NCBI RefSeq assembly: GCF_024171565.1
Contig: NZ_JALJZZ010000001.1
Coordinates: forward strand, 434,001 to 498,000
Reading direction: 5' to 3'
DNA: 64,000 nucleotides
Source: Okibacterium sp. HSC-33S16
Lineage (GTDB): Bacteria; Actinomycetota; Actinomycetes; Actinomycetales; Microbacteriaceae
Positions 62,466-63,827 of the stretch are shown in pieces. Position 1 is the stretch's first letter; each line of letters opens with the position of its first letter. The notes below the pieces were generated by a model. The model did not search any database. It saw only the letters and a program-made list of their open reading frames with translations, and was not told the DNA's origin. A program made the translations under genes and the position numbers.

Positions 62466-63344
62466 ATGTCAGGGGATATGTTGTTCCGCGGGCCCAGTGA
62501 CCTGCACACGCACTCGCGGGTATCGGATGGCACGGAATCACCGTCCCGGCTGGTCCGCGAGGCGGCGGCTGCAGGGCTTGGCGCAGTCGCACTGACCGAT
62601 CACGATTCGACGGCCGGCTGGCATGAAGCGTCCGGTGAAGCGCAGAAGCAAAACATCACGTTCATCCCGGGGATGGAATTCAGCACGCGCTACGGCTACA
62701 AGAGCGTCCATCTGCTTGCGTACCTCTTCGATCCGCTGTCCGCTGATCTCGTGGCCGAGACAGCGCGGATCCGCGAGTCACGTCTCAAGCGCGCGGAGTC
62801 CATCGTGCGGCGCATTGGCGTCGACTACGACCTTGACTGGGACGATGTGCTTGCCCAGACCACGCCAGGGGCGACAGTGGGACGTCCGCACATCGCCGAC
62901 GCTCTCGTCGCGCGGGGGCACGTGCCGACGCGAAGCGAAGCGTTCACCGGCATCCTGCATCCACGAAACGGCTATTACCTGCCGCACTATGCCCCCGACC
63001 CGCTTCTTGCGGTGACGCTGGTGCGTCGGGCCGGGGGAGTGCCCGTCATTGCTCACCCGGCGACGCGCGGGCGGGACGCCATGATCGACGAGCAACACCT
63101 GTCACAGCTCGTCGACGCCGGCCTGTTCGGTCTCGAGATCGATCATCGTGAGAACACGGACGACGGCAAGGTGCGGCTGCGGGAACTGGCGAAGAAATTT
63201 GGTCTCGTCCTGACCGGGTCAAGTGACTACCACGGTGCGGGCAAGCCCAACCGTCTCGGTGAGAACACCACGGCGGATGAGGTTCTCCAGGCGATCATCA
63301 ATGAGGGAACCGGTTCGAGCCCCGTCTACCCCGGCGCGCGGTAG
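62466..63344 (+). CDS. PHP-domain phosphoesterase
   Basis: 292 residues from ATG 62466, 5 nt after TACACT (62455-62460). The four PHP motifs are present: DLHTHSRVSDG, LTDHDSTAG, the HPATRG His and SSDYHG. These bind two or three metal ions. GMEFSTRYGYKSVHLLAYLFD places it with the 3',5'-nucleoside bisphosphate phosphatase/TrpH-like group. It probably hydrolyses small phosphorylated nucleotides. The repeat array begins 21 bp after its stop. Confidence 0.92.
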   Translation: MSGDMLFRGPSDLHTHSRVSDGTESPSRLVREAAAAGLGAVALTDHDSTAGWHEASGEAQKQNITFIPGMEFSTRYGYKSVHLLAYLFDPLSADLVAETARIRESRLKRAESIVRRIGVDYDLDWDDVLAQTTPGATVGRPHIADALVARGHVPTRSEAFTGILHPRNGYYLPHYAPDPLLAVTLVRRAGGVPVIAHPATRGRDAMIDEQHLSQLVDAGLFGLEIDHRENTDDGKVRLRELAKKFGLVLTGSSDYHGAGKPNRLGENTTADEVLQAIINEGTGSSPVYPGAR

Positions 63345-63364
63345 CGCAGGCGTTCTGCTGCGGC

Positions 63365-63674
63365 GTTGCTCCGTCAGTAGTGGCGATGCCGTTCGTTGCT
63401 CCGCCAGTTGTGGCGAGGAAAGTCAACCTTTTCTCGCACATAGTGACCGAGATTCTGGTGCGACGATCAGTAATGACCGAGCGCTAGCGCATGGGCATTG
63501 CCGCGGCGTTATTCGGTCAGTAGTGGCGGTGGGCGTTCGCTGCTCCGTCAGTTGTGGCGACAGTTGTGGCCGTGCTGATCGTTGCTCCGTCAATAGTGGC
63601 GACAGCTGTGGCGAGGTAACTCGTTGCTCCGTCGGTAGTGGCGACGCAGAGCGTTGCTCGGTCGATTGTGGTGA
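63365..63674 (+). repeat. Seven degenerate 22-bp repeat units (A units)
   Basis: Units close to GTTGCTCCGTCAGTAGTGGCGA start at 63365, 63395, 63508, 63539, 63581, 63623 and 63653, all in the same direction. Steps are 30, 113, 31, 42, 42 and 30 bp. The two 42-bp steps contain an extra half unit (CAGTTGTGGC at 63561, CAGCTGTGGCGA at 63603). Most units differ by several substitutions, with no indels inside them. No coding frame explains them. Confidence 0.85.
63395..63478 (+). repeat. 84-bp direct repeat, copy 1 (A unit plus B unit)
   Basis: This block aligns without gaps to 63653-63736, with 14 mismatches by eye (about 83% identity). It joins an A unit, GGAAAGTC, a T-rich TTTTCTCGC segment, ATAGTGACCGAGATT and a final GTAATGACC. 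The change pattern is mostly transitions. Confidence 0.85.
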
Positions 63675-63736
63675 GGAAAGTCGACTTTTTCTCGCGCATA
63701 GTGACCGAGATTCCGCTGGAACGACCAGTAGTGACC
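63653..63736 (+). repeat. 84-bp direct repeat, copy 2
   Basis: Second copy of the block at 63395-63478, 258 bp downstream. Further B-like half units (GTGAGTGACCG, TTTCTGACCGAG) trail off to about 63770. Confidence 0.85.
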
Positions 63737-63794
63737 TCGATTTCGCGTGAGTGACCGTTTCTGACCGAGCACCGCCGGTCAACCACCAACACAC

Positions 63795-63827
63795 AGGCCC
63801 GCCCGACACATGGTCGAACGGGCCTGC
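63795..63827 (-). terminator. Stem-loop after the minus-strand gene at the window end
   Basis: CAGGCCCG at 63795-63802 pairs with CGGGCCTG at 63820-63827, with an inner CGAC/GTCG pair. It sits 18 bp beyond the stop of the minus-strand gene, and the sequence beyond the hairpin on that strand is TG-rich (TGTGTTGG). A plausible terminator. Confidence 0.55.

Follow-up and report, generated by a model that had tools for sequence, protein, structure and literature searches.

The intergenic DNA at 63365-63773 of the window (the whole 64-kb stretch of DNA that was analysed) is one member of a dispersed family of intergenic inverted arrays, and most likely a cooperative binding array for a putative sequence-specific protein, a reading to which we give a probability of about 0.55. 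The nucleation dyad of each array would consist of a facing pair of 22-bp half-sites whose starts are 39 bp apart, and further half-sites usually follow outward at intervals of some 3 or 4 helical turns. We infer a protein as the recogniser, its cooperative binding and its action at gene ends: a putative double-strand DNA-binding protein would dock as a dimer at the centre and spread outward, and the arrays would mark or insulate convergent transcription, or organise the chromosome. Their purpose may lie in a chromosome role or a transcription-end role, or they may be passive mobile repeats. A protein-binding array and a new repeat family were both among the suggestions of the initial annotation, and both have held, the former as a putative one: copies are dispersed, intergenic and constantly spaced in five genomes.

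The window array lies between a PHP-domain gene on the forward strand, which ends at 63344, and a DEAD-box helicase gene on the reverse strand. Three ORFs overlap it, none with a Pfam or PHROG match at E 0.01; when gene calls were compared with arrays (20 bp tolerance), this array alone overlapped a call, a weak one (score 6.8). Related arrays step by 29, 31 and 41 bp, so that a reading frame would break. This agrees with the early description of the array as noncoding, and no complete gene covers the region.

Units were scored with a matrix from 145 units of other arrays in the same genome, the window locus excluded. The seven same-direction 22-bp units noted at the outset, with steps of 30, 113, 31, 42, 42 and 30 bp, were all recovered on the forward strand at 16.9-27.4 bits: 63365-63386 (GTTGCTCCGTCAGTAGTGGCGA, 27.4 bits), 63395-63416 (22.6), 63508-63529 (16.9), 63539-63560 (23.9), 63581-63602 (27.4), 63623-63644 (25.1) and 63653-63674 (26.1). 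The rest of the 64-kb window has two places of at least 8 bits (8.0 and 10.9), and ten Markov controls of 64 kb each, both strands, gave a total of 30 matches of at least 8 bits and 11 of at least 11 bits.

Two inverted arrays, A and B, lie side by side here, with the seven forward units as their left halves; no strand is assigned to either. Array A (63365-63485) reads > 30 > 39 < 30 <, with units at 63365+, 63395+, 63434- and 63464-; array B (63508-63773) reads > 31 > 42 > 42 > 30 > 39 < 30 (<) 30 <, with units at 63508+, 63539+, 63581+, 63623+, 63653+, 63692-, 63722- and 63752-. The "second unit" TAGTGACCGAGATT, at first taken as distinct, is the 22-bp unit in reverse orientation, and the 113-bp step, correct as a spacing, is no empty gap but holds the right half of array A. 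Right halves are poorly kept in the window: the units at 63434 (its register set by the genus-wide 39-bp rule), 63692 and 63722 score 5.2, 1.6 and -6.5 bits, the last without score support, so the positions of all three come from the spacing rule alone. The reverse unit at 63464-63485 is worn (9.1 bits) and that at 63752-63773 well kept (28.6 bits). The dyad centres, 61 bp each, begin with the forward units at 63395 and 63653 and span 63395-63455 in A and 63653-63713 in B, both with the worn right units just scored; model R1 matches them at 63395-63451 (14.0 bits, E 0.0037) and 63653-63709 (20.2 bits, E 4.3e-5). The internal duplication first described as 84-bp blocks extends to 115 bp at 83%, the forward-strand copies 63364-63478 and 63622-63736 standing 258 bp apart. 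In array B, two steps of 30 bp are each lengthened to 42 bp by 12 bp that partly copy the 3′ half of the preceding unit (63561-63572 after the unit at 63539, 63603-63614 after that at 63581).

Six genomes made up the genus set, G000 (that of the window) to G005, from a genus that we take to be Mycetocola. The search for further copies proposed in the initial annotation finds them both in the same genome and in the genus. In G000 (3.23 Mb, 10 contigs) a DNA search gave 26 matches, and DNA and pattern searches combined gave at least 14 array loci, at which the unit matrix places units in both orientations, pointing inward to a common centre. Tandem unit pairs concentrate there, 66 of the 76 in this genome standing at these arrays and the other 10 being scattered. 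With the pattern TGCTCnGnC-N25..55-GnCnGAGCA the gap was exactly 39 in 14 of the 16 matches, and the reversed pattern gave 3. Across the genus, for gaps of 29-49, the gap was 39 in 63/70 matches, as against 11 matches in all for the reversed pattern; by genome the shares were 14/15, 17/19, 6/6, 0/1, 9/12 and 17/17 for G000 to G005. The strict pattern at gap 39 thus marks 6 to 17 centres in five of the six genomes and none in G003. When GG/CC was added and 2 mismatches allowed, the six genomes had 20, 29, 18, 2, 25 and 39 centres, against 0 to 3 for the reversed pattern; in G003 this control likewise gave 2. G003 has one worn array (on contig C23, > 30 > 39 <) and about five weak sites by profile. 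The array design is common to the window's genome and four others of the genus. Among 299 genomes of the family, 48 match the strict pattern, 43 of them outside the genus with 1 or 2 matches each, which is control level. One stretch of G005 (C1:2925381-2957036; L138, L139 and L210) holds eight centres (at most 2 mismatches) in 32 kb, about 0.2 Mb from dnaA, and two contigs of G004 (L160 and L161) carry an identical array with the same neighbour genes, a duplication or an assembly overlap.

The geometry of these arrays is fixed. At 52 loci in five genomes the matrix scan found 385 units, and one Markov control per genome gave 2. The innermost units stand 39 bp apart, start to start, in 79 of 80 convergent neighbours within 90 bp, a figure partly selected, as the loci were largely picked by the 39-bp pattern; the variable-gap counts above are the fairer test. 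GG and CC, absent from the search pattern, occupy the same place in 59/59 non-redundant centres. Same-direction steps of up to 90 bp (n=211) fall mainly at 29-32 bp (140) and 39-42 bp (50). The helical phasing stressed by the initial annotation is part of the design but incomplete as an account of it, with unit orientation and the 39-bp centre carrying most of the order; its expectation of constant spacing among copies elsewhere was borne out. Clusters hold 2 to 21 units and lack the fixed termini of a MITE, and whole arrays are tandemly repeated.

Arrays favour convergent gene pairs, which make up 24/60 gaps with an array and 66/435 without (p 2e-5). Divergent pairs account for 9/60 with and 94/435 without over all gaps (p 0.31); arrays are rarer in divergent gaps when gaps below 20 bp are excluded (p 0.018), and among gaps of at least 100 bp the divergent share is 9/59 with an array versus 77/182 without (p 0.00014). 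If it is true that a binder acts at convergent ends, this could be a new actinobacterial way of handling colliding transcription or chromosome folding. The 28 immediate array neighbours in G000, read by eye, are diverse; elsewhere in the genus, the genes beside most arrays went through a BLAST comparison of gene order alone. A binder encoded beside the arrays was considered and set aside, as no neighbour recurs among these 28 and those of two dense regions, L139 and L166 (by eye). Clustering near the origin is not claimed: in G005, with dnaA at base 82, KS p was 0.049 for loci merged at 5 kb (22 loci) and 0.48 at 50 kb (14 loci).

Positions are shared between species, eleven intergenic places carrying an array in two or more of them (orthologous places were grouped by hand from the BLAST gene-order comparison). 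At the window place, profile matches reveal an array in each of G000 and G001 and a worn centre in G004; the matching loci of G002, G003 and G005, and those of six further genera (G006, G008, G010, G011, G012 and G015), have no match at E 0.1. The idea that relatives might have ordinary unique sequence here is thus borne out in part, by the lack of an array in G002, G003 and G005, and fails for G001 and G004.

Unit sequences keep to the consensus of their own genome instead of tracking descent, though hardly so in G000. At variable unit positions, arrays of different genomes are 0.458 alike at the same place (22 pairs) and 0.449 at different places (1541 pairs), a difference of 0.016 (standard error 0.012) when matched by genome pair, while arrays within one genome are 0.548 alike (433 pairs). 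The exception is G000, with units 0.432 alike within the genome versus 0.418 between genomes. Genome-specific units at shared places would be expected from a trans-acting recogniser whose preference differs by genome, and they suggest a recogniser that differs from one species to the next. Spacer similarity lies somewhat above the prediction from composition (0.358 vs 0.304 in G000, 0.426 vs 0.333 in G005), yet far below that of the unit cores.

In the genus the dyad acts like a pair of double-strand sites turned towards each other. Arm complementarity at variable positions, in sets of 59 and of 94 centres, was no higher than after within-genome shuffling of right halves; single positions reached p 0.004 to 0.045, uncorrected, and these tests are weak for genomes with few sites. 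The 59 centres are 79 less near-identical ones, the window's own falling outside because their right units are below threshold. The 94 sites comprise 26/29 from G001 (3 unlike the family left out by eye), 18/18 from G002, 13/20 from G000 and 31/39 from G005 (tandem near-duplicates left out of both), and 6 from G004 (25 counted). Pooled over genomes, arm covariation is strongly positive, 0/500 shuffles reaching the observed score, which, given the negative within-genome tests, we put down to a consensus that differs by genome. An RNA or single-stranded DNA hairpin was accordingly rejected for the genus on the within-genome shuffles, the pooled count notwithstanding. The window array has no Rfam family at gathering score.

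A related palindrome occurs in other genera of the Microbacteriaceae. A sequence-only profile of the 59 centres matched 24 of the 299 family genomes, 18 of them outside the genus, and of one match per outside genome 10 were judged by eye to be a palindrome (L224, L225, L227-L231, L233, L235, L238; genomes G030, G040, G087, G102, G118, G126, G145, G157, G173 and G190) and 8 chance (L226, L232, L234, L236, L237, L239-L241). This palindrome is shorter and hairpin-like, mostly a single dyad, with the half-site core and GG-N23-CC centre of the genus arrays and without the TGCTC outer motif; at 2 of 21 sites (L251 and L256) no GG-N23-CC stands close to the profile match. In a model-free scan of 15 loci (30,962 bases) for GG-Nn-CC flanked by bases of which at least 12/16 are complementary, n=23 accounted for 16 places, of which 13 had been model-chosen and 3 had not, and the 11 other values of n for 0 to 3 places apiece. 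Here the hairpin does carry compensatory changes: arms are complementary at 0.92, 0.84 and 0.62 versus 0.66, 0.46 and 0.41 in shuffles across genomes (16 sites; 0/2000 reach the observed), and within G102 alone (5 sites) 3/120 permutations reach it. Fourteen of 15 sites are intergenic (L255 is inside a called gene), and those with both neighbours called (n=13) are 7 convergent, 4 tandem and 2 divergent. Eight other-genus loci have no Rfam match at gathering score; in the Rfam searches of these loci and of the window array, matches to ftsZ-DE and miRNA families lie far below it. Three listed copies in G157 (C69, C73 and C115; L227 and L249) lie about 100 bp or less from a contig end, the matches on C115 and C69 starting at bases 17 and 24; a sequence present in many copies would be expected to interrupt an assembly in this way. 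Given the common core and centre, the window array is probably an elaborated branch of a wider family element. A bolder extension, which we regard as tentative, is that a putative dimeric protein reads the GG-N23-CC dyad at convergent ends throughout the Microbacteriaceae, and that in Mycetocola such sites grew into phased arrays, spreading outward, which turn over in sequence with its specificity.

Intergenic palindromes scattered through bacterial genomes are commonly linked with RAYT transposases and hairpins. The present family is likewise dispersed, with a rigid dyad geometry and no RAYT, and in one genus it shows no within-genome sign of a hairpin constraint. Dispersed chromosomal sites for one DNA-binding protein are known in matS/MatP and parS/ParB, which a putative binder of the present sites would resemble, except that these are arrays on a dyad with weak origin clustering. 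Comparison with described repeats draws on passages of four papers (PMC3116915; PMC2817692; PMC3733652; PMC2516522). In such passages, REPINs, REP doublets and BIMEs are short extragenic units in inverted doublets at preferred distances, with clusters, tandem copies of whole doublets and a preference for convergent and unidirectional gaps (PMC3116915; PMC2817692; PMC3733652). The window's family shares the extragenic inverted doublet at a preferred distance, and its layout is most like REPIN/BIME, but the hallmarks tested fail: within-genome hairpin covariation, RAYT and end tag. The unit, moreover, is not itself palindromic and is repeated in the same direction at about 30 or 41 bp, and the genus genomes lack a Y1 (RAYT-type) transposase, as the arrays lack within-genome compensatory pairing. 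No GTAG or CGTC tag is seen by eye at the ends of the 59-centre consensus; a published list of phyla with GTAG and CGTC repeats does not include Actinobacteria, nor does the paper's text contain the word (PMC3733652). Among the papers listed, titles and abstract openings in the open-licence literature yielded no description of the repeat in Mycetocola or Microbacteriaceae.

The main rival, compatible with the protein-array reading, is a non-autonomous mobile family (MITE- or REPIN-like) whose half-site-reading transposase is lost, rare or of another type, which grows by tandem duplication, and which is intergenic because insertions in genes are purged. We consider it unlikely, though it would account for the differing presence at the window place between species, the tandem repetition of whole arrays, the G157 copies at contig ends and the rarity of arrays in long divergent gaps (if not over all gaps). 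Against it, the arrays have no constant outer boundary, and target duplications show no clear excess at 64 array clusters (k = 4, 5, 6 and 8; 17 offsets), each test giving at most 2 matches, against 0.05-0.6 by chance, with uncertain array boundaries. No transposase stands among the 28 immediate neighbours in G000 or in the dense regions L139 and L166 (by eye), and Y1 transposases (RAYT and relatives, PF01797) were found in 0/6 genus genomes, the control finding PF01797 in 5/14 named genomes. Viral contigs have no exact match to the centre pattern, and BLAST of the window array, which has little power on DNA this degenerate, gave no match in phages or plasmids; a phage or plasmid origin was set aside on these results. 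Nor do unit sequences track shared descent. It is very hard to credit the early suggestion of a solo transposon end (IS21-, Tn7- or Mu-like), which the direct repeats of about 22 bp resemble: the arrays are symmetric on a fixed dyad with variable outer limits, no transposase occurs among the 28 G000 neighbours, and most tandem unit pairs of that genome belong to such arrays, the remaining 10 being scattered. The companion suggestion of an iteron or partition site finds no support in a repeat with many copies, no replication gene among the neighbours read and weak clustering near the origin.

A bidirectional terminator or 3′-end hairpin acting as RNA, degenerate in Mycetocola, would explain the bias to convergent gene ends, as well as the long hairpins with complementary arms found at many of the mostly intergenic sites of other genera. 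Those arms suit an RNA or single-strand hairpin and so count against the protein-array reading, as do the pooled arm covariation, the scarcely genome-specific units of G000 and the worn right halves in the window. We still hold the RNA explanation to be distinctly unlikely, as genus arms lack covariation within genomes (the pooled count being positive), 9/60 occupied gaps are divergent, no Rfam family reaches gathering score, and a terminator-like inverted repeat stands apart from the array in the window, at 63794-63826. Less probable again is a repeat under no selection, multiplied by slippage and homogenised by gene conversion; the tandem duplications and 12-bp partial copies do look slippage-like, and spacer similarity in G000 and G005 somewhat exceeds that predicted from composition, but the centre keeps its 39 bp where other distances differ, and spacers resemble each other far less than unit cores do.

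Other repeats occur around the window place. The terminator-like inverted repeat, CAGGCCCGCCCGAC ... GTCGAACGGGCCTG, stands between the window array and the helicase gene, and G005 has a similar one after the PHP gene, where it lacks an array. Downstream of the PHP gene in G001 (L184) there is a second, unrelated-looking intergenic repeat (GTCGAATCGCCACACCTTGTC ... GGGCGACAAAGTGTGGT) with at least two copies by eye, and in G008 (L190) the corresponding DNA has a palindrome, CCGAATTCGAAGGAGATCC ... GGATCTCCTTCAAATTCGG, with CTTTCGCGAAA inside it.
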